The position numbers and the translations under genes are program-made. The notes below the pieces were generated by a model. The model saw only the letters and a list, made by a program, of their open reading frames with translations, was not told the origin of the DNA and made no database searches. This document shows, in pieces, positions 5,282-24,742 of a stretch of DNA of 39,482 bases. Source of the DNA: Deltaproteobacteria bacterium. GTDB taxonomy: Bacteria; Desulfobacterota; DSM-4660; Desulfatiglandales; Desulfatiglandaceae. The DNA lies in the NCBI GenBank assembly GCA_019307945.1, contig JAFDIS010000024.1:1-39482 (forward strand). Reading direction: 5' to 3'. The number at the start of each line of letters is the position of its first letter. Within the stretch, counting starts at the first letter, position 1.

Positions 5282-6410
5282 AAAGGGTGTTTATCTCATC
5301 GACTCGCTGACATCGGGGGGTGCTCAGCGCCAGTTAGTTGAACTAGTTAAAGGCCTCGACAAGAAAACAGTGAGTCCTACTGTAGTAGCTTACCACGACA
5401 TACCATTCTTCAGGAAAGAATTGCTAGATGCTGATATCCCCTTTTCTTTGATTGAGAAAAAGGACAAACTTGGGATTTCATTTTTTCGCCAATTTCTTGT
5501 GGCGTTGAAGCGGAATCCTCCGGATTTCATTCACAGTTTCCTGAATGTTCCCAATATATATGCCAGAGTCGCTAAACTTTTCGGAGGGGTGAAGGGTGTG
5601 GTGACAAGCGATCGGAATATATCCCTTACCCAGCGATTTGGCCTGACATTGGGAGAAAAAATGACCTGGAGGCTATCTGACGTTATCATCACGAACGCCC
5701 ATGCCGTAAGGGATGTTCTTATCAATAGAATAGGTGTTCCACCATCAAGAATCAGGGTGGTCTATAACGGCGTTCAGGCGGAGCGATTCTCGATGGCGGA
5801 TCGAGAAAAGGTCGCCGAGATACGGAAAAGATGCCGAGCCAATAAGAAGGGGACTTTGTTGATTGGCCTTGTAGGGAGGGTAGCCCCTCAGAAGAACCAT
5901 CTTGCGCTTCTTGTGGCCATGAGGCGTATCCTCGACATAAGGGCCGATCTGGATATCCGAGTTGGGTTTTGCGGAGCAGAAGCGGATCCGATTTATGCGC
6001 AGAAAGTCAGACATGCGGTGAGTGAGCTCCGTTTGAATGAAAAGGTATTTTTTTTGGGGGTGGAGAAAGATATGGCAAGCGTTTACCAGGCATGTGATGT
6101 CTTAGTTCTTCCATCCCTCTGGGAGGGATTCCCAAATGTTGTCTTGGAGGGAATGAGCGCCAGACGTCCGGTGATTGCATCTGACATTGTAGATAATTCC
6201 CAAATCATCTTGAATGGAAAGGACGGTTTCCTCGTTGAACCAAATAACGTTGAGAGCTTGGCCTATGTAATCCTCACGGTCATCACACTTAATGAAGACG
6301 AGCGGAGGGCTATCTGCGAGCGGGCCTGGAAAAAGGTGGTATCGGAGTATTCGATTGACAAGATGGTTCAAAACACGATGCAGGTATACCGAGAGTTCGG
6401 GCTGTGTTAA
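5256..6410 (+). CDS. Glycosyltransferase, GT4 family (GT-B fold)
   Basis: The 384-residue protein has the GT-B pattern of the GT4 family. An N-terminal acceptor domain begins GVYLIDSLTSGGAQRQ, with the usual glycine-rich GGAQ turn. The C-terminal nucleotide-sugar domain begins near residue 205 at LIGLVGRVAPQKNH, and E290 and E298 in WEGFPNVVLEGM form the E-x7-E motif. It would transfer a sugar from an NDP- or UDP-donor onto a lipid-linked acceptor at the cytoplasmic membrane. The start is a TTG lying within the deacetylase gene (26-bp overlap). No ATG is available before the conserved N-terminal strand, so a non-AUG start coupled to the upstream gene is the best reading. The 3' end overlaps the acetyltransferase by 7 bp. 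Donor and acceptor are unknown. Confidence 0.88.
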   Translation: MAREINTIKKGVYLIDSLTSGGAQRQLVELVKGLDKKTVSPTVVAYHDIPFFRKELLDADIPFSLIEKKDKLGISFFRQFLVALKRNPPDFIHSFLNVPNIYARVAKLFGGVKGVVTSDRNISLTQRFGLTLGEKMTWRLSDVIITNAHAVRDVLINRIGVPPSRIRVVYNGVQAERFSMADREKVAEIRKRCRANKKGTLLIGLVGRVAPQKNHLALLVAMRRILDIRADLDIRVGFCGAEADPIYAQKVRHAVSELRLNEKVFFLGVEKDMASVYQACDVLVLPSLWEGFPNVVLEGMSARRPVIASDIVDNSQIILNGKDGFLVEPNNVESLAYVILTVITLNEDERRAICERAWKKVVSEYSIDKMVQNTMQVYREFGLC

Positions 6411-7976: not shown

Positions 7977-10195
7977 TGCTATCTATGAAACTCAGTGCCC
8001 TTGCAATTTGCCTGCTCGCAATGAGCATTGTCATCCCATTTGTGCCCGAAAAATCTGCCGCGGAGGGACGTCTTGAGGTTTATAGATTAATGCCGCATCC
8101 TAATTACCCCCTTTGTACCGGTAAGAGGGACCTCCTCGACCTTACCGATGGGGTGCTCTCGCATTATCCTATGTGGGTGCATTCCGAATGTGTGGGGTGG
8201 ACAGACCAGGGCCCTGTCAAAATCTTTATCAAGGTCAAGAACTGCCTCAAAAAAGTTTCGGGAGTGCTGAGCATTCATACGGCCAAGGGCTCTTTTGCAG
8301 GGGTGAAGATCCCTCTTAGAGTTGACGTGTACGGGGACCTTGGGAATGGGAAATACCATCATGCTGGGGATTTGGAAATAGAAGAACAGGCTTTTCAGGA
8401 CCGAGAATCGCATTGGCTGAACGTCAGCGTTGACTCCGTCAGTCCTCGGATGATGGTAATCGTGCGTCCTAGTGGACGCTATCTGTTTATCGATGAGTTG
8501 CGGTGGAAAAACATAAGCAATAGCAGACCCAGAGACTTGGAGGTGATTGGAGATGCTCACGCTTGCGAGCTGGACAGTGTGAAGAGGCACCGCCATAGCC
8601 TTCTTGGCAAAATTCGACCTGAGAAAGAAGTCGTGAAGTCTTGGGTAGGGGCGTTTGGGAAGTTCGGTATCGCAACATGGGTCGTAGAAAACCCTTTCGA
8701 TTCCTTTCCTGCTTTCCCGCCCGTGGAGAATATTCACCGTTGTGGAAACAAAATTGAGCTCTGGGGATCCAAAAGCGAGTTGGAGTGCGGGTGCATTGGG
8801 ATGTTAACAAACGGGAAAGACAAAAGAAAGATAGAGGTAGCGGTGGAAGGTTATGCGGACATTGTTAACTCGATAAGCCTCAGCCGCGTGCAGGGCATTT
8901 TGAGTGCGGAGGGGCAACTCGTGTTTGATCCACTGATTCCATTGGTCTCCGGGGATCAGATAGATATTCCTGGAAGGTGTGCTGTTTATATTTGGGTTCA
9001 AGTGGATTTCCACAATATTCCGCCCGGCCATCACGGGGTGGCCATCAAGTTGCGTGAAAATGCGAAAGCGTGGAATGTAATTGTGCCAGTCTCCATAAAC
9101 GTTGCACCGGTTAAGCTTAAGACTAAACATCGCCCGGCTGCTACCAACTGGGCGTACACCTCGGATCGTCCCATTTGGCGTAACCGGAAGTTAATCCTTA
9201 AAGACTTAATAAAACATGGGATTAATGTCTTTGTCGTTCACCCTTCCGCTATTCCAATGCCATCTATTAAGGATGATTGGGATAATCGGGCAGCACAGAG
9301 GTTTGTCAAGGATCTATCACTATTTCAAGGAAAAGGACTAATCCTGTTGTATCTGGAGTGGGGGCGCGGGCGGGGGCCAGCTTGGCTTGACCCACTGTAC
9401 GGGAAAGATTTAGAGAGGCAGAAGGTTGCAGTTCAGCGCTGGGTAAGGAGGATCCGGCAAGTTCTTGAGTCCCTGGGCATTTCACATTCAGAGTGGGCCC
9501 TGTACCCGATCGATGAGCCGTGCGGAGAGAACTTGCATTTTCTGCGGGAGATAGCGGCTTGGGTGAAGGAAGAGGATCCTGCTATCCAGCTTTATGCCAA
9601 CCCGATTACGTCATCATCTGCCCACACAAGCCCCGAAGATTTAATATCTTTAAAGGGGCTGGTGGACTTCTGGCAGCCGAGTTTAAGATTTGCGACCAAT
9701 GATGGAGCGCCATTCTTTGCCGGCCTCAAACACCTATGGTGGGTCTATGTCGGCATACCCCGACCTGCCAAGTCGGCATCGCCGTGGTATTATTACAGGC
9801 TGATGGCCTGGAGGGCCTGGGAAGCCGGGGCATCAGGCGTCGGATTTTGGTCCTATAGCGATACTTCGGGAACCAGTGCTTGGGACGATCTCGATGGCCG
9901 ACGTCCTGATTATGCGGTTGTATATGAAGGTAGAGACAGCTCGGAGACACCTATTAGTAGTCGCAGGTGGGAGGCTTTTCGTGAAGGTGTTGAGGACTTT
10001 CAATTACTTGAAACAGTGGCAAAAGGAGATATCCCATCTAGTTCTAAAATGGACGGGATTCTGAAAGCCAGAGTTAAGAACTTATTGGAAAAACAAGAAG
10101 TCTCCTTTGATATTTTAAATGGCTTGCGGAAAGAGATGTTGCAAGGTTTGCCAGACAAGCTTTTAGCTCCAGTGGCTTTGCCTCTTTCTAACTAA
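7973..10195 (+). CDS. Secreted DUF4091 (GH123-like) glycoside hydrolase-family protein
   Basis: The 740-residue protein starts with a signal-peptide-like segment (residues 5-31, ALAICLLAMSIVIPFVP then small residues near SAAEG), so it is probably exported. Residues about 35-380 are beta-rich. The C-terminal half looks like the DUF4091 domain that shares the GH123 TIM-barrel: YPIDEP with D514-E515 as the likely catalytic acidic pair, WQPS, SPWYYYRLMAWRAWEAGASG, GFWSYSDT, and the family ending RRWEAFREGVEDFQLLE. GH123 enzymes cleave N-acetylgalactosaminides with substrate assistance, but most DUF4091 proteins are uncharacterised. Its place in the operon suggests it trims or degrades the locus's own glycan in the periplasm or outside. 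It overlaps the GT4 gene by 4 bp (ATGA). Confidence 0.82.
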   Translation: MMLSMKLSALAICLLAMSIVIPFVPEKSAAEGRLEVYRLMPHPNYPLCTGKRDLLDLTDGVLSHYPMWVHSECVGWTDQGPVKIFIKVKNCLKKVSGVLSIHTAKGSFAGVKIPLRVDVYGDLGNGKYHHAGDLEIEEQAFQDRESHWLNVSVDSVSPRMMVIVRPSGRYLFIDELRWKNISNSRPRDLEVIGDAHACELDSVKRHRHSLLGKIRPEKEVVKSWVGAFGKFGIATWVVENPFDSFPAFPPVENIHRCGNKIELWGSKSELECGCIGMLTNGKDKRKIEVAVEGYADIVNSISLSRVQGILSAEGQLVFDPLIPLVSGDQIDIPGRCAVYIWVQVDFHNIPPGHHGVAIKLRENAKAWNVIVPVSINVAPVKLKTKHRPAATNWAYTSDRPIWRNRKLILKDLIKHGINVFVVHPSAIPMPSIKDDWDNRAAQRFVKDLSLFQGKGLILLYLEWGRGRGPAWLDPLYGKDLERQKVAVQRWVRRIRQVLESLGISHSEWALYPIDEPCGENLHFLREIAAWVKEEDPAIQLYANPITSSSAHTSPEDLISLKGLVDFWQPSLRFATNDGAPFFAGLKHLWWVYVGIPRPAKSASPWYYYRLMAWRAWEAGASGVGFWSYSDTSGTSAWDDLDGRRPDYAVVYEGRDSSETPISSRRWEAFREGVEDFQLLETVAKGDIPSSSKMDGILKARVKNLLEKQEVSFDILNGLRKEMLQGLPDKLLAPVALPLSN

Positions 10196-12578: not shown

Positions 12579-13832
12579 ATGCACATCCTTTTTCTGACTC
12601 ACTACTTCCCCCCGGAAGTGAACGCTCCTGCTTCTCGCACCTATGAAAACGCCATACGTTGGGTGGGAGAAGGGCAGCAGGTTTCAGTGATAACTTGCGT
12701 ACCGCATCATCCTAAGGGGGTGGTTTATGACGGTTATCAAAACCGATGGCGTCAGTGGGAACTGATGGAGGGCATACATGTCCTTCGTGTGAAGACATAT
12801 CTTGGTCCGAACGCAGGTTTTTTCAGAAGAATTGCAAACTACGTATCCTATCTCTTGGCAGCGACTTTGTTCTGTCGTTCGGTAAAGGATGTCGATATTG
12901 TTGTGTCTACATCGCCCCAGTTTTTTTGTGGTTTGGCGGGATATGCGGTATCTAAAAGGCTCAATGTTCCTTGGTTGCTCGAGATCAGGGACCTGTGGCC
13001 GGAATCCATTGTTGCGGTGGGTGCCCTAAAGAGCCGGTCAATAATCAGCCTATTGGAGGGAATTGAATCGTTCATGTATCGTAAGGCCGACGGGATCGTA
13101 TCGGTAACACGGTCGTTTGTTGATCATATTGTGTCGAGAGGTGTTGAGAGGGAGAAGGTCTCTGTTGTTACGAACGGCGCAGATTTGCGTCGGTTTGATC
13201 CCCTGCCCAAAGACAATCCGGTTGCCCGCGAACTAGGTCTGGCCGATAGGTTCGTAGCAGCGTTTATCGGTACCCACGGAATGGCCCACGGTCTGGAGAC
13301 CGTCTTGCTGGCTGCTGAAAGACTGCGGAAGGAGAATAATATCCTGTTCCTTCTTGTGGGCGATGGGGCTGAACGTGAGAATATCTTGCGGCAAAAGGAG
13401 CGTCTCCAGCTCGACAACGTGCTCATGCTCCCCCAGCAGTCAAAGGACAGAGCAGTGAAACTGCTGGCCTCTGCCGACGTCTCCCTGGTTCTCCTGAGGA
13501 AGAATCGGCTTTTCAGGACGGTTATCCCCTCTAAGATTTTCGAGGCCATGGCTATGGAGAGGCCGATCATTTTGGGGGTTGATGGCGAAAGCAAAGAGAT
13601 TATGCTTGAGAGCGGGGCTGGAATTTGCATTGAACCGGAAAATGACCGAGAACTGGCCGATGCTGTTCTCACCCTTTATCGTGACCGCGAAAGGTGTCGG
13701 GAAATGGGTCAAAGAGGAAGGCGATTTGTTGAAAGGAATTATAGCAGGGATATACTCGCCAGGCGGTACTTGTCGCTGATTGAGGAAGTTATATCGGGGA
13801 AGAGGAGCGACGGAAGAGAGGAAGTGGTTTGA
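12579..13832 (+). CDS. Glycosyltransferase, GT4 family (WbuB-like)
   Basis: The 417-residue protein opens MHILFLTHYFPPEVNAPASR and contains ITCVPHHPKG, LLEIRDLWPESIVAVGA and NGADLRRFDP. This set is typical of WbuB/WcaI-like GT4 enzymes, which transfer amino sugars such as N-acetyl-fucosamine during O-antigen or capsule repeat assembly. The donor domain contains FIGTHGMAHGL and IPSKIFEAMAMERPI. It should act on the cytoplasmic face of the inner membrane. The gene lies 16 bp after the heparinase-family gene, and its TGA overlaps the probable TTG start of the exosortase gene, so the three are likely co-transcribed. The WbuB comparison rests on motif similarity; the actual sugar is not known. Confidence 0.87.
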   Translation: MHILFLTHYFPPEVNAPASRTYENAIRWVGEGQQVSVITCVPHHPKGVVYDGYQNRWRQWELMEGIHVLRVKTYLGPNAGFFRRIANYVSYLLAATLFCRSVKDVDIVVSTSPQFFCGLAGYAVSKRLNVPWLLEIRDLWPESIVAVGALKSRSIISLLEGIESFMYRKADGIVSVTRSFVDHIVSRGVEREKVSVVTNGADLRRFDPLPKDNPVARELGLADRFVAAFIGTHGMAHGLETVLLAAERLRKENNILFLLVGDGAERENILRQKERLQLDNVLMLPQQSKDRAVKLLASADVSLVLLRKNRLFRTVIPSKIFEAMAMERPIILGVDGESKEIMLESGAGICIEPENDRELADAVLTLYRDRERCREMGQRGRRFVERNYSRDILARRYLSLIEEVISGKRSDGREEVV

Positions 13833-15418
13833 GTATGATACGAAGGACTTACTTTTTCAACTTCGCCCAGGCGTTGATTTTGGCCGTAGTTCTGGTAATC
13901 CTTTACTATCCTTCTCACCGAATCATGGTGGCCTGGTGGAAGGGAGGCGACTATAATTATTGCTACCTGATTCCCTTTATTGTTTTGTACCTGTTGTGGG
14001 AAAAAAGGGACGAATTCCGGCTTGTACCTTCCTATGCTTCCTGGTTTGGCCTCATTCCATTGCTTCTGGGAATAAGTTTCTATTGGCTTGGTGAGCTCGG
14101 CGGCGAGTTTTATACTCTCTACCTGTCGTCATGGCTCGTCCTGGTGGGCGTTTGCTGGATGAATTTGGGGTGGAAGAAGATAAAAACGATAGCCTTCCCC
14201 CTGATCATGATCTTGACCATGTTCCCGCCCCCCAATTTTATTTACTTTAGGCTTTCCCTGAATCTCAAACTCCTATCCTCCAAGCTGGGCGTGTGGATGA
14301 TGCAGGCATACGGAATGTCCGCATACAGGGAGGGGAACATCATCGACCTGGGCTTCACCCAGCTCCAGGTGGTTGATGCGTGCAGCGGGCTGAGATTTCT
14401 TTTCCCCATGATCGTCATGGGCCTGATTCTGGCCTATTTCTACAAGACATCCTTCTGGAAAAGGGCGATCATCGTTGTTTCCACCGTTCCCCTGACGGTG
14501 GTGACCAACAGCCTACGGATCGCGCTTACCGGAATTCTTTACGAGGTGTGGGGGCCGGCTGTGGCCGAGGGGTTTTTTCACGGGTTTTCCGGGTGGTTCA
14601 TCTTCATGGTCACCCTACTGATTCTCCTCGGGGAGATGTATGTCCTTGGGTTTCGACTCCGATCCGCCAGGCCTTCGCCGGGAACAGAGCCGGATGCGAC
14701 CCCGGCTGAAGATTATGGGGAGCAGGTGCCTGCACCTGACGCTGGAAGCTCCCTTCGCGGTTGGAAGGCCTTGTTTTATCCCCCCCAGTTCGTGGTGGCA
14801 AGCGGCCTGCTCCTGCTTACCTTCGGACTTTCCTACGGAGTGGAGTTTCGGGAAAAGATTCCTATGAACAAGCCTTTCAGCCGGTTTCCCATGGCCGTGG
14901 GCGAGTGGCGGGGCACCAGGGAGACCCTGGGAAAGCAGTTCATTGATGCCCTTGATTTGAGCGATTACGTGATCGTGGATTTTGAGAACCGCGAGAACAA
15001 GCACGTAAACCTGTATGTTGCCTATTACGAAAGCCAGCGCAAGGGCGAGTCGATCCACTCGCCCAGCACTTGCCTTCCGGGGAGTGGATGGGTGTTCAAC
15101 GAGGCCGGGGAAATCAGAGTACCCACCCCGGGCTATGGAAAGGGGAGCATCCCGGTAAGACGGGCCTACATGCAGAAGGGAGCCTACCGACAGCTTTCCT
15201 ACTACTGGTTCCCCCAGCGGGGAAGGATCCTGACCAACGCGTATCAGCTCAAGATCTACAACTTCTGGGACGCGCTGACCCGGCAGCGTACCGACGGAGC
15301 ACTTGTGCGGCTTATCACGCCGGTCTACGACAGGGAGGAACCGGCGGATGCGGAAAGGCGCCTCCAGGCCTTCACGCGAGAAATCCTGCCCGTGCTTTCG
15401 CAATTCCTTCCGGGCTGA
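13829..15418 (+). CDS. xrtD: Exosortase fused to EpsI domain (XrtD-like, VPLPA-CTERM type)
   Basis: The 529-residue protein has about eight membrane segments in residues 10-275, followed by a soluble C-terminal domain from about residue 310. The exosortase catalytic triad is visible: C185 in DACSGLRF, R230 in TNSLR and H251 in FFHGFSGW. The C-terminal part (PFSRFPMAVGEWRG, YVAYYESQRKGESIHSPSTC, YYWFPQRGR) is an EpsI/DUF3485 domain. Exosortases are membrane transpeptidases that process proteins with a C-terminal PEP-CTERM-like sorting signal, and EpsI accompanies them in exopolysaccharide loci. The one-chain fusion is characteristic of the XrtD group, which recognises VPLPA-CTERM tails; this subgroup call is from architecture and length. 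Start TTG 13829 overlaps the GT4 stop; ATG 13835 is an equally good alternative. No substrate protein is encoded in this window. Confidence 0.85.
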   Translation: MSMIRRTYFFNFAQALILAVVLVILYYPSHRIMVAWWKGGDYNYCYLIPFIVLYLLWEKRDEFRLVPSYASWFGLIPLLLGISFYWLGELGGEFYTLYLSSWLVLVGVCWMNLGWKKIKTIAFPLIMILTMFPPPNFIYFRLSLNLKLLSSKLGVWMMQAYGMSAYREGNIIDLGFTQLQVVDACSGLRFLFPMIVMGLILAYFYKTSFWKRAIIVVSTVPLTVVTNSLRIALTGILYEVWGPAVAEGFFHGFSGWFIFMVTLLILLGEMYVLGFRLRSARPSPGTEPDATPAEDYGEQVPAPDAGSSLRGWKALFYPPQFVVASGLLLLTFGLSYGVEFREKIPMNKPFSRFPMAVGEWRGTRETLGKQFIDALDLSDYVIVDFENRENKHVNLYVAYYESQRKGESIHSPSTCLPGSGWVFNEAGEIRVPTPGYGKGSIPVRRAYMQKGAYRQLSYYWFPQRGRILTNAYQLKIYNFWDALTRQRTDGALVRLITPVYDREEPADAERRLQAFTREILPVLSQFLPG

Positions 15419-18915: not shown

Positions 18916-19167
18916 AAGACTGGAATTCCGAGGATTTTGGGGATGCTGCGCAATTTGTTCTGGTACGCTGCGGATCCAGTCGTTTCCCGCCCTGCGGGAT
19001 CACCTGAAACCTCGCGGGCCCGGAACGCGTCTGCCGCGGGCAGATCCGGCGCAGGCGCGAAAACCGCTCCATTTTTGGACAAGTGCGGAACTCACCGGCC
19101 GTCAGGCCGCCGGGATATCAAACCCCATGGCCTCCGTTTCTCGGGAAGCCTCCATTTATCGTCCACA
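18916..19167. other. Gap between WecA-like gene and tandem array, no gene seen
   Basis: These 252 bp, together with the array that follows, separate the WecA-like gene from prsT (444 bp in all). The sequence is GC-rich and contains short inverted repeats such as CCCGC/GCGGG near 18987-18999 and TCTGCC/GGCAGA near 19029-19043. It has no T-run terminator and no clear promoter. Two reading frames run through it into the array and into prsT, but their translations resemble no family. Confidence 0.4.
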
Positions 19168-19340
19168 CCAGACAGACCAGACAGACCAGATAGACCAGAC
19201 AGACCAAACAGACCAGACAGACCAGATAGACCAGACAGACCAAACAGACCAGACAGACCAGATAGACCAGACAGACCAGACAGACCAAACAGACCAAACA
19301 GACCAGACAGACCAGACAGACCAGACAGACCAAACAGACC
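19168..19340. repeat. 9-bp tandem array (CCAGACAGA family), copy 1, upstream of prsT
   Basis: Nineteen consecutive 9-bp units occupy 19168-19338, with two more bases of a partial unit. Only three unit forms occur: CCAGACAGA, CCAGATAGA and CCAAACAGA. A four-unit order (36 bp) repeats near the left end, a sign of recent unequal crossing-over or slippage. The plus strand has almost no T, so a transcript would be poorly structured. The array stops five bases before the GGAGAGG ribosome-binding site of prsT. The same unit family recurs at 24494-24718. Confidence 0.95.
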
Positions 19341-19359
19341 AGGTGGAGAGGTAAGGGTG

Positions 19360-21765
19360 ATGTTTCAGAAGAAAAGAATCGCGTTCATGGGGATCATCGT
19401 GGTGTTCATGCTCACTGCGGCCTTTTTGGCCGGCTGCGGCGGGCCCGAGGAGAAGAAGGCCAAGTTCTTCCAAAAGGGAAAGGCCCTCTATGAGAAGGGC
19501 GAATATGTCAAGGCGCGCCTGGAGTTCAAGAACGCCCTTCAGATCGATCCGCATTTCGCCAGGGCCTATTACATGCTTGGTCTGGTGGAGCTCAGGCAGA
19601 AACGGTGGAAGAACGCTTACGGGGCCCTGGCCAAGGCCGTCGAACTGGACCCTGACATGTTGGACGCCCAGGCGGCCATGGGGAAGCTCTTGCTCGCGGC
19701 CAAGGAAAAGGAAAAGGCCCGTGAAAAGGCTGACCTCGTACTGGCCAAAGATCCGGAGAACATAGAAGGCCTGCTTCTCAAGGCGGCATGCCTCCTGGCC
19801 GGGAACAAGGATGCCGAGGCGGAAAAGATTATTCGTTCGGTTATCCAAAAGAGCCCCCAAAACCAGGAACCCTACCTGATGATGGCCCGCCTGCGAGTGA
19901 AACAGAAGGACCTCAAGGGGGCCCGGAAGGTCCTCGAGGATCTTTTACAACAGGACGAAGCTAACAAGATCGGACGAATACTCCTGGCCGAGATCCTCGA
20001 AAAGTCCAAAGACTTCAAAGCGGCGGAGGCCCAGTACCAAACCCTCATAGAGCAGGAACCGGAAAAGCCCGCCCTCAGGCTGGCCCTGGCGCGCTTCTAC
20101 GGGCGAACGGGAAAACCTGAAAAGGCCGAGTCCATCCTGAAGGACCTGGTGAAAAGGGCGCCCGAGGAAGAAAACTATCGCCTTGCCCTGGCCCAGTTTT
20201 ACGCTGAAACCCGCCGTCCGGAGCGGATGGAAGCGGTGCTCAAGCAGGCTATTTCAGATCTTCCCGACAAATACGGCCCCGTGAGGATGCTCGCAGCCTA
20301 TTACCTGTCCAGGAAAAAGGCGCCGGAGGCCATGAAGGTCCTGGACCGGTTTGCGGATCGGGTCAAAACCGGGCCGCTTTTTCTTCAGGCGCGCCTGCTC
20401 AAGGCCCGAATCCATTTCCAGGAGGGAGACAGGGACAAGGCGCTTGAACTGGTGGAGGTCGTCCTCAAGGAGAACCCGGGCGACGTGGCGGCCCACGCCC
20501 TCAAGGGCGATATCCTGGCCACCAAACGGGATTTCGTTGGTGCCGTCGCCGAATATCGCACGGTTCTCCACGAAGAGCCCCGCAATGTGCGCGCGGCCCT
20601 GAACCTGGCAAGGGCCCATTTCATGAACGGTGAGCAGGCCCTGGCGGAGGAGACCTACAAACGTCTTCTGGAGGCGAACCCCCGTGTCAAGGAGGCTCGG
20701 CTGGCTCTTGTGGACATTTATAGGCGCAAGGGCAAGGTGGACCTCGCCCGGGACCAGCTCGAAGAGATGGTCAAACAGGACCCCAAGGACAAGGCCGCCC
20801 TCACGGCACTGGGAGATCTCTACCTTGCTCGCCGCGACGTTCGTAAGGCCAAGAAATATCTGACTCGACTGGCCAGGCTGGCCCCCGAGTCTCCCGCCGT
20901 CATTACCAAGATGGGCGTGGTGGACCTCCTGGAGCGACGGCCAGCCACGGCCAAGCAGTTTTTCGAGGAGGCCTTGAAAAAGGACCCGGACTATGTGCCG
21001 GCTCTCAGGCAATTGGCCAATACCCTGGTGGCGGAAAAGAAAGAAAAACGGGCCATCGCGCGGTGCAAGAAGCAGGTGGCCGCGAGGCCCAAGAACGACT
21101 CCTTCCGTGTGCTGTTGGGCAGGCTATACCTGCGGAACCGGAATTTTTCCGCGGCCCGCAAGCAGTTCGAAAAGGCCCTGGCCCTCAACCCGGACAGCCA
21201 GGAGGCCCTCTTCAGCCTGGCGCAGCTCGAGCAGACCCAGGGTTCCGTGGAAAAGGCCCTGAAAAAGTACCGGGAGGTGTGGGCGAAAAACCCCGCAAAC
21301 CTTGGGGTGGCCATGCTGATCGCCACCTTGCTTGAGCAGCAGGGAAGGCCGAGGGAGGCCAAAGCCCTATATGAGAAGATCCTGGACCGGAACCCCAACG
21401 TTTCGGCGGCCGCCAACAACCTGGCCTTCTACTATGCAGAATATGAGCCTACGACCCAAAACCTGATGCGTGCCAAGGCCCTGGTGGGTCCCCTGCTGGA
21501 CCGGCACAAGGACAACCCCAACGTGATGGATACGGCCGCATGGATCGCCTACCGCCAGGGGGAATTCAAAAAGGCCAGGGATCTCATGGCGGGAATGGAG
21601 GAGAAGAGCAAGAATATCCCGGTGATCAATTACCACCTGGGAATGATCTACCTCCGGCTGGATCGCAAGGCGCTGGCCAGGAAATACTTGAGCAGGGCGC
21701 TCAAAGGAAAGGATCGTTACCCGGGCCGCAAGGAGGCGGAGAAGGCTTACAAGCAACTCACCTAA
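19360..21765 (+). CDS. prsT: PrsT-like TPR-repeat lipoprotein (PEP-CTERM/exosortase system)
   Basis: From ATG 19360 the product is 801 residues. A lipoprotein signal is clear: MFQKKRIAFMG, a hydrophobic run, then FLAGC with C26 as the lipidation site. The rest is a long chain of tetratricopeptide repeats with the usual spacing of A, G, Y and P (ARAYYMLGLVELRQKRWKNA; the DPENIEGLLLKA type recurs). Length, lipid anchor and linkage to an exosortase fit the PEP-CTERM system TPR lipoprotein family. Such proteins are thought to act as periplasmic scaffolds in exopolysaccharide export or assembly. GGAGAGG lies 8 bases before the ATG. The frame is open upstream to 18937, but those codons run through a tandem array and precede the lipoprotein signal, so the longer start is rejected. 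Confidence 0.85.
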   Translation: MFQKKRIAFMGIIVVFMLTAAFLAGCGGPEEKKAKFFQKGKALYEKGEYVKARLEFKNALQIDPHFARAYYMLGLVELRQKRWKNAYGALAKAVELDPDMLDAQAAMGKLLLAAKEKEKAREKADLVLAKDPENIEGLLLKAACLLAGNKDAEAEKIIRSVIQKSPQNQEPYLMMARLRVKQKDLKGARKVLEDLLQQDEANKIGRILLAEILEKSKDFKAAEAQYQTLIEQEPEKPALRLALARFYGRTGKPEKAESILKDLVKRAPEEENYRLALAQFYAETRRPERMEAVLKQAISDLPDKYGPVRMLAAYYLSRKKAPEAMKVLDRFADRVKTGPLFLQARLLKARIHFQEGDRDKALELVEVVLKENPGDVAAHALKGDILATKRDFVGAVAEYRTVLHEEPRNVRAALNLARAHFMNGEQALAEETYKRLLEANPRVKEARLALVDIYRRKGKVDLARDQLEEMVKQDPKDKAALTALGDLYLARRDVRKAKKYLTRLARLAPESPAVITKMGVVDLLERRPATAKQFFEEALKKDPDYVPALRQLANTLVAEKKEKRAIARCKKQVAARPKNDSFRVLLGRLYLRNRNFSAARKQFEKALALNPDSQEALFSLAQLEQTQGSVEKALKKYREVWAKNPANLGVAMLIATLLEQQGRPREAKALYEKILDRNPNVSAAANNLAFYYAEYEPTTQNLMRAKALVGPLLDRHKDNPNVMDTAAWIAYRQGEFKKARDLMAGMEEKSKNIPVINYHLGMIYLRLDRKALARKYLSRALKGKDRYPGRKEAEKAYKQLT

Positions 21766-21771
21766 GGGGTT

Positions 21772-22229
21772 TTTGGGTTGGTTGGGTTTGTTGGGTCTGT
21801 GGGTCTGTTGAGTCATTGGGTCTGTTGGGTCGTTGGGTCAGTGGGTCTGTTGGGTCTGTTGGGTCATTGGGTCTGTTGGGTCATTGGGTCGTTGGGTCAG
21901 TGGGTCTGTTGGGTCGTTGGGTCAGTGGGTCGTTGGGTCAGTGGGTCCATTGGGTCTGTTGGGTCAGTGGGTCCATTGGGTCGTTGGGTCTGTTGGGTCG
22001 TTGGGTCGTTGGGTCGTTGGGTCTGTGGGGTCAGTGGGTCTGTGGGTCTGTTGGGTCGTTGGGTCAGTGGGTCTGTTGGGTCGTTGGGTCAGTGGGTCTG
22101 TTGGGTCGTTGGGTCTGTGGGTCAGTGGGTCTGTTGGGTCTGTGGGTCTGTTGGGTCAGTGGGTCCATTGGGTTGGTTGGGTTGCTTGGGTTTGTTGGGT
22201 TACTTGGGTTCATTGGGTTTGTTGGGTTA
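21772..22229. repeat. GGGT tandem array (about 54 units) between convergent genes
   Basis: About 54 units of 8-9 bp follow one another, each GGGT plus a short spacer: CTGTT, CGTT, CAGT, CCATT, CATT or, at both edges, TTGTT and similar. GGG runs spaced by 5-6 bases give this plus strand strong G-quadruplex potential over the whole 458 bp. It fills nearly all of the gap between the prsT stop (21765) and the pcm stop on the other strand (22246). Mixed unit lengths mean that no reading frame is kept, and the open frames through it are not genes. The GGTCTG core is the reverse complement of the CAGACC core in the two 9-bp arrays. Confidence 0.95.
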
Positions 22230-22245
22230 ATCCGCGGGGAGCGCA

Positions 22246-22896
22246 TCAGTCCTTCCAGCCGTGGATGCCCACCAGGTTTACGAACCGGCACCCGCCGAGG
22301 CTCTTCTGTACGAGCTTGCCCTTGATCTTGGTGATCTTGATCAGTTCCTGGCTGAAGCGGTTACCGGTGGGGATGACCAGTCTGCCCCGTTCGGCGAGCT
22401 GTTCGATGAGGGGCTCGGGGATCTTGGGGGCCCCGGCCGTGACTATGATGGCGTCGTAAGGTGCGTGTTCTTCCCACCCCAGGGTGCCGTCGAAGGCCTT
22501 GAAAAGGATGTTGGTGTAACCCAGTTCAGCTAGAATTTTCCTGGCCTGAAGCATGAGCGCCCGGATGCGCTCCACCGTGCATACCTTTCCGGAGAGTTCC
22601 GCCAGGATGGCGGTCTGGTAGCCGCTGCCCGTTCCGATCTCCAGGGTTTTTTCCCGGCCTGTCAGTTCAAGGGCCTCGGTCATGAGCGCCACGATGTAGG
22701 GCTGTGAGATGGTTTGCTTGTGCCCGATGGGCAGGGGGTGATCGTTGTAGGCCTCGCCCACCAGGGCTTCTTCCACGAAGCGGTGCCTGGGGATCTTCTC
22801 CATTGCGGCGAGGACCCCTTTGTCCTTGATCCCGCGCGGTATGAGCTGGGTCCGTACCATGCGTTCCCTGGCCAGCCTGTAGTCGTGGTTGTTCAC
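22246..22896 (-). CDS. pcm: Protein-L-isoaspartate O-methyltransferase
   Basis: The 216-residue soluble enzyme repairs damaged proteins by methylating L-isoaspartyl residues with S-adenosylmethionine. Family motifs are [20 protein letters not shown] and [10 protein letters not shown] at the N-terminus, the substrate-site segment [15 protein letters not shown], the SAM-binding loop [16 protein letters not shown], and [20 protein letters not shown] near the end. Length is normal for the family. Translation starts at a GTG (minus strand, 22896) preceded by AAGGAG at suitable spacing. The gene faces prsT tail to tail across the GGGT array and is divergent from glyQ. No terminator other than the array itself separates the convergent 3' ends. 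Confidence 0.93.
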
Positions 22897-24202: not shown

Positions 24203-24216
24203 AGGGGAGGGATAGA

Positions 24217-24440
24217 GGCACAAAGGGGCAGAGGCACAAAGGGACAGAGGGACAGAGGGACAGAGGGACAGAGGGGCAGAGGCACAGAGGCACAAAGGGG
24301 CAGAGGCACAAAGGGACAGAGGGACAGAGGGACAGAGGGACAGAGGGGCAGAGGCACAGAGGCACAAAGGGACAGAGGCACAAAGGCACAAAGGCACAAA
24401 GGGGCAGAGGGACAGAGGGGCAAAGGGGCAGAGGCACAGA
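24217..24440. repeat. 8-bp tandem array with a perfect 72-bp duplication, downstream of glyQ
   Basis: Twenty-eight consecutive 8-bp units run from 24217 to 24440, beginning 15 bp after the glyQ stop. Unit forms are GGGACAGA, GGGGCAGA, GGCACAGA, GGCACAAA and one GGGGCAAA. The first nine units (24217-24288) are repeated exactly, in the same order, by the next nine (24289-24360), so a 72-bp block has duplicated recently. The plus strand is purine-rich and lacks T. With 8-bp units the frame shifts at every unit, so encoded peptides are meaningless. Confidence 0.95.
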
Positions 24441-24493
24441 GGTAAAAGGGCTGAAGGCAAGAGGATGCGCCGCCTGGCCGCTGACTCCACAGA

Positions 24494-24718
24494 CCAAACA
24501 AACCAGATAGACCAAACAGACCAGACGGACCAGACAGACCAGATAGACCAAACAGACCAGACAGACCAAACAGACCAGACAGACCAGACAGACCAGATAG
24601 ACCAAACAGACCAGACAGACCAGATAGACCAAACAGACCAGATAGACCAAACGGACCAGACAGACCAAACAGACCAAACAGACCAGACAGACCAAACAGA
24701 CCAGACAGACCAAACAAA
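24494..24718. repeat. 9-bp tandem array (CCAGACAGA family), copy 2, upstream of glyS
   Basis: Twenty-five 9-bp units fill 24494-24718. The same three main forms as at 19168-19340 occur (CCAGACAGA, CCAGATAGA, CCAAACAGA), plus single-base variants CCAAACAAA, CCAGACGGA and CCAAACGGA. The array ends 24 bp before the glyS ATG, again just ahead of the ribosome-binding site. Unit order differs from copy 1, so the two arrays have evolved separately since they were seeded. Confidence 0.95.
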
Positions 24719-24742
24719 CCAAAGGTACCCAAAGGACGGAAC

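Follow-up and report, generated by a model that had tools for sequence, protein, structure and literature searches.

A G-rich array between prsT and pcm is one of dozens of short-unit, gene-edge arrays in a deltaproteobacterial genome and its relatives

The spacer between the convergent genes prsT and pcm in a Desulfatiglandaceae genome (contig JAFDIS010000024.1, 39,482 nucleotides, the whole of which we call the window) is occupied by an array of G runs about 460 bp long. The array is not a device specific to this locus but one of dozens in the genome and in its relatives. We consider it probable that it is an expanded, heterogeneous G-run minisatellite, a member of a population of dispersed 7–9 bp arrays that this genome and others of its order carry at gene edges, with strand filtered by gene expression. 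A class of minisatellites with surviving members sorted by strand is the best-supported account of the data that follow.

The array itself is a real sequence feature. The composite extends over 463 bp, from 21,767 to 22,229, with the G-rich strand on the plus strand, and consists of two unit types. Its core (21,783–22,165), delimited by TRF, the sequence itself and a pattern search of the genome, is built of 8- and 9-mers in which GGGTC is followed by two to three variable bases and a T (type C); the tails after GGGTC are TGTT, GTT, AGT, TGT, ATT or CATT. The right end (22,168–22,229), defined by TRF and a table of units, is built of 9-mers of TTGGGTT plus two variable bases (type D). TRF alone calls an array at 21,767–22,227 and the right part at 22,168–22,229. 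Upstream, the plus-strand gene prsT (19,360–21,765), encoding an XrtA/PEP-CTERM TPR lipoprotein, has the G-rich strand as its sense strand and ends 1 bp before the array. From the other side, pcm (22,246–22,896, minus strand), encoding a protein-L-isoaspartate methyltransferase, converges on prsT and has its stop 16 bp past the far end. Both assignments are above the NCBIfam cut-offs (PrsT against TIGR02917, 358 bits, cut-off 312; Pcm against PRK00312, 249 bits, cut-off 188), as are those of GlyQ, GlyS and an exosortase elsewhere in the window. That exosortase, at 13,829–15,418, is of the XrtD (VPLPA-CTERM) type and is fused to an EpsI domain.

The preliminary description counted about 54 GGG runs spaced 5–6 bases apart, with dense G-quadruplex potential, and the recount bears this out. 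Between 21,772 and 22,229 the plus strand carries 53 runs of three or more Gs and no CCC run. The loops between them comprise 27 of 5 nt, 24 of 6 nt and one of 14 nt, so 51 of the 52 gaps are 5 or 6 nt; the single long loop is a GAG unit. These 458 bp hold 13 non-overlapping G3+N1-7 motifs, whereas sampled stretches of the genome have roughly 1.1 for every 10 kb of strand, and mononucleotide shuffles of the array contain on average 23 GGG runs and at most 32. Quadruplex formation by the array is plausible in view of its motifs and of prior CD work on other oligonucleotides.

Arrays of this kind are spread across the genome. By TRF, the window contains three more, all with units other than those of the focus array; neither these nor the composite make-up of the focus array figured in the preliminary description of it. 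One, of type A (a 9-mer that reads ACAGACCAG on the plus strand), lies at 19,167–19,342, 14 bp before the prsT start, with its GG strand on the minus strand and antisense to the gene. The other two lie between glyQ and glyS, where a type B array (the 8-mer GAGGSACA; 24,207–24,442, plus strand) starts 4 bp after the glyQ stop with its GG strand sense, and a second type A array (24,489–24,721, minus strand) ends 21 bp before the glyS start with its GG strand antisense. In the 540-bp glyQ–glyS spacer (24,203–24,742), the two arrays are thus unrelated and have their GG-rich strands facing one another; contig C96 shows this arrangement, B followed by A, twice. Pattern searches and sampled stretches together revealed more than 20 arrays in the genome, often with two types per spacer, and four unit types: A (ACAGACCAG), B (GAGGSACA), C (GGGTC) and D (TTGGGTTNN). 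A second kind of repeat, with units of 48–51 bp resembling TTTGTCCTCGCCTGTGGGCTCGG..., was also seen in this genome (L091, 3,583–3,684; L100, 3,225–3,319; L107, 11,066–11,334).

Almost all arrays of this genome are intergenic, and most have co-directional genes on either side. An initial sample of 869 kb contained 20 arrays, none inside a called gene; this sample was partly picked for holding arrays, and among the blindly picked stretches only that of contig C25 held any. In fresh stretches, one of 33 arrays lay inside a gene. Arrays are clustered on some contigs, and an exception to the intergenic position is genome G008. There, eight type D arrays occupy 6 kb of contig C44 (L314, 2,616–8,619), most of them lying in frame within genes that belong to an exosortase locus (EpsI, exosortase, a DegT-like aminotransferase, FemAB and a polysaccharide deacetylase), where they encode Asn-Pro-Thr repeats; the FemAB model match is broken into two stretches. 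We considered a link to exosortase loci, as arrays adjoin XrtA/PEP-CTERM genes on contigs C182 and C35 and in G008. However, they also adjoin unrelated genes, such as those for RecG, SelA, adenylate kinase and formate-THF ligase, and therefore the association is not specific. Overall, the flanking genes are mixed and largely housekeeping. No known RNA family was found in the arrays searched.

Unit types differ in how widely they are shared. Within the order, 14 of 85 genomes have type D, which is rarer across the phylum (8 of 247 genomes, the focus genome included). Type C is nearly private, with 54 pattern matches in the focus genome and at most eight in each of nine others in a 395-genome sample of the phylum, and type A is nearly private as well. 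Across 304 units of type D, drawn from several genera, the TT, GGG and TT positions are nearly fixed (entropy 0.3–0.65 bits), and the two variable positions reach 1.7 and 1.8 bits, being mostly TG, TA, AC, GC, CA or CG; the commonest change in the core is GGG to GAG. We rejected an element bound to the prsT–pcm locus, since in the relatives examined that have orthologues of these genes, pcm has other neighbours and no GGGTC array. Around prsT, no short-period arrays were seen in L111 or L113–L115. A distant prsT relative in L112 has arrays on both sides (5,577–5,656 and 8,455–8,521), made of the perfect heptamers AAGCTCA and CAAAGCT. In L271 (G018, contig C5, 28,000–47,000), a stretch of 45% G+C with many small genes, several unit types occur in successive spacers.

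What most of the arrays share is their orientation. Read in the direction of the G runs, an array has its 5′ end near a gene and its 3′ end far from one, such that the nearest edge is either a stop with the G runs sense or a start with the G runs antisense. Pooling all sets, 71 arrays lie no more than 40 bp from a gene, and in 64 of them the strand with the G runs points away from that gene, whether at its start or at its stop (p=1.3e-12). The rule holds for 21 of 25 arrays of all types in the focus genome (median distances 20 and 251 bp) and for 43 of 52 in relatives (21 and 148 bp); type D alone gives medians of 21 and 159 bp, and type D arrays of relatives within 40 bp of a gene follow it in 12 of 14 cases at stops and 20 of 20 at starts. 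Because the rule was derived from these same data, we collected fresh ones. New stretches from two genomes of the order, with any GG-skewed type admitted, gave 15 of 17 (p=0.002). The tests share data and were partly designed after looking, so this is the cleanest number. An earlier fresh test that pooled own and outside arrays gave 9 of 14, with poor gene calls in one AT-rich contig, and in a small set of arrays taken outside the order the rule did not hold (6 of 12). All these distances rest on a simple codon-score gene caller whose starts may be off. The focus array conforms, lying 1 bp from the prsT stop with its G runs sense; as it fills the spacer, the pcm stop is also near.

Two other sources of the rule were rejected. 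Generic composition does not produce it, as ordinary spacers of the focus genome show no GG bias after stops and, before starts, a GG excess that is the opposite of what the arrays show. The predictor of array strand is GG skew; where this skew is absent, RNA structure of the strand predicts nothing (13 of 28), so the filter is not RNA structure in general.

The class and its placement rule have been reported before. Rehm et al. 2015 (PMC4692102) described G-rich heptameric simple sequence repeats in Xanthomonas (GGGAATC) and Nostoc (GGGGA(C/T)T) that are heterogeneous, mostly intergenic and quadruplex-forming in vitro, with the G strand antisense to a gene when immediately ahead of its start and sense when immediately behind its stop. 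In Xanthomonas the average distance to the neighbouring ORF is 28 nt on the 5′ side and 160 nt on the downstream side; no tie to gene function was found, and their role was left unexplained (PMC4692102). The arrays of the present order are likewise heterogeneous short tandem units with conserved G runs and variable positions, dispersed and mostly intergenic, not tied to gene function, at times paired face to face in one spacer, and placed so that a gene lies nearest to where the G strand has its 5′ end. The distances are also alike, although ours are medians (21 and 159 bp) and theirs averages. They differ in that units are 8–9 bp rather than 7, of different sequence and of several types per genome; the arrays are often longer and occur in other bacteria, and their quadruplexes are predicted from the motif, those of the heptamers having been observed in vitro. 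The tested features therefore match except for unit length and sequence, and because the GGG run is conserved but the units are not heptamers, we regard the arrays as a variant of the class described by Rehm et al. rather than as members of it. Another set of repeats, the TAACTGA heptamers of Beggiatoaceae, Cyanobacteria and Bacteroidetes, for which a translational role was proposed (MacGregor 2015, PMC4679880), also consists of intergenic, short-unit direct repeats near start codons of unrelated genes. Unlike the present arrays, they lack G runs, have one unit, mostly in two to six copies, and lie mainly at start codons. The cyanobacterial STRR heptanucleotide repeats are short tandemly repeated units too, and differ from ours in unit length, sequence and host group. 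Calothrix repeats are cited in PMC4692102. Our literature search, of limited reach, found no report of such arrays in Desulfobacterota or Deltaproteobacteria.

The preliminary description had suggested that the array could stop transcription or replication forks from one side in the prsT–pcm spacer, as a form of termination or insulation not described before. Its sequence premises stand. The array does lie between the two 3′ ends; no hairpin-plus-T terminator candidate is present on either strand of 21,766–22,245, so an intrinsic terminator was not found there; and read-through RNA would be G-rich from prsT and C-rich from pcm. The prsT-side RNA has a predicted fold of −87.9 kcal/mol for 300 nt (z=−9.8 against shuffles, quadruplexes not counted), and the pcm-side RNA is predicted to be open (z=−1.2). 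When quadruplexes were permitted in ViennaRNA, ordinary pairing beat them in the G-rich RNA, an outcome that depends on the model and to which we give no weight for or against. On the pcm side, C exceeds G by 22–31 per 78 nt, where the 99.9th percentile for sampled stretches of the genome is 24. C-rich, G-poor, unstructured RNA, as expected of a Rho-dependent terminator, is thus predicted for the pcm-sense strand only, and a rho gene is present in the genome. By these models, the pcm-side RNA would resemble a Rho site and the prsT-side RNA would be strongly self-structured, and unequal effects of the array on the two transcripts are plausible.

One could read these features as a functional two-way insulator, in which quadruplexes in the G-rich RNA or the non-template strand would slow polymerase leaving prsT, and the C-rich pcm RNA would load Rho, each transcript being stopped before the other gene. 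The dense quadruplex motifs, the missing hairpin, the contrast between a strong fold on one side and open RNA on the other, and a C excess around or above the 99.9th percentile would all suit it, and other convergent spacers of the genome (L309, L310) have similar arrays nearer a stop on the G-sense side. However, arrays are not clearly enriched in convergent spacers (5 of 25 arrays of this genome, compared with 40 of 280 sampled spacers over 100 bp), and at the two glyQ–glyS arrays a block to transcription would come at a cost if glyS had no promoter of its own. Both points argue against a dedicated terminator, and we find the insulator unlikely. With similar arrays at many loci, and with the class and rule known since 2015 (PMC4692102), neither a device dedicated to this convergent pair nor its novelty could be upheld.

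The minisatellite account would accommodate the same features as a by-product of the array sequence rather than as a dedicated device. Arrays would grow in spacers by slippage and recombination, and selection on gene expression would pick which of them survive. G runs directly before a start codon would be purged, as they could act as pseudo-Shine-Dalgarno sequences, form quadruplexes or create TTG starts; after a stop they would be tolerated, or even be mildly useful as a 3′-end barrier. Between prsT and pcm, such an array may give the prsT mRNA a structured 3′ end and the pcm mRNA a Rho-accessible, C-rich tail. Counting against this account, the rule applies to both kinds of gene edge, and purging of G runs ahead of start codons accounts for the starts only; the out-of-order set weighs in the same direction.

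It is worth asking if a single general process, be it directional array growth checked by genes or the shielding of genes from incoming transcription, lies behind the outward rule in unrelated bacteria and units, with the focus array as an example. We regard this as a speculative option with a minor share of our confidence. Another unlikely candidate is a directional process at the level of DNA, whereby array growth would have a single polarity with respect to the G-run strand and would be halted or seeded at gene edges whatever the gene direction. Two points speak for it: the rule is symmetric between starts and stops, an outcome that is not predicted by any single selection on RNA, and our medians come close to the Xanthomonas averages. 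However, no enzyme was found for it, and a test that treated both array ends alike showed no gradient in unit decay (24 versus 18 arrays, p=0.44); an apparent polarity, in which units closer to the gene looked cleaner, was due to asymmetry of the array finder and was gone in the symmetric repeat. Without decay polarity along the arrays, there is no direct sign of their mode of growth. An assembly artefact or binning error, with a foreign array or contig or a wrong length, is very improbable: the assembly is fragmented (185 contigs), contig C34 starts inside a GGGTC array and type D arrays on C26 and C159 lie within about 120 bp of contig ends, indicating that arrays trouble assembly and leaving array lengths uncertain, but at many loci the arrays are internal to contigs and have intact genes on both sides, and related ones recur in other genera.

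The strand rule for G-rich arrays at gene edges is precise, and it was reported ten years ago in Xanthomonas and Nostoc with no explanation given. Finding the same rule and similar distances with different unit lengths and sequences in other bacteria suggests a general cause. For annotation, such arrays are a source of spurious open reading frames, and they can also run in frame through part of a gene. Genomes in which many array types stand side by side, such as the focus genome, G018 and G034, offer the variation with which selection on RNA could be separated from a directional process on DNA.
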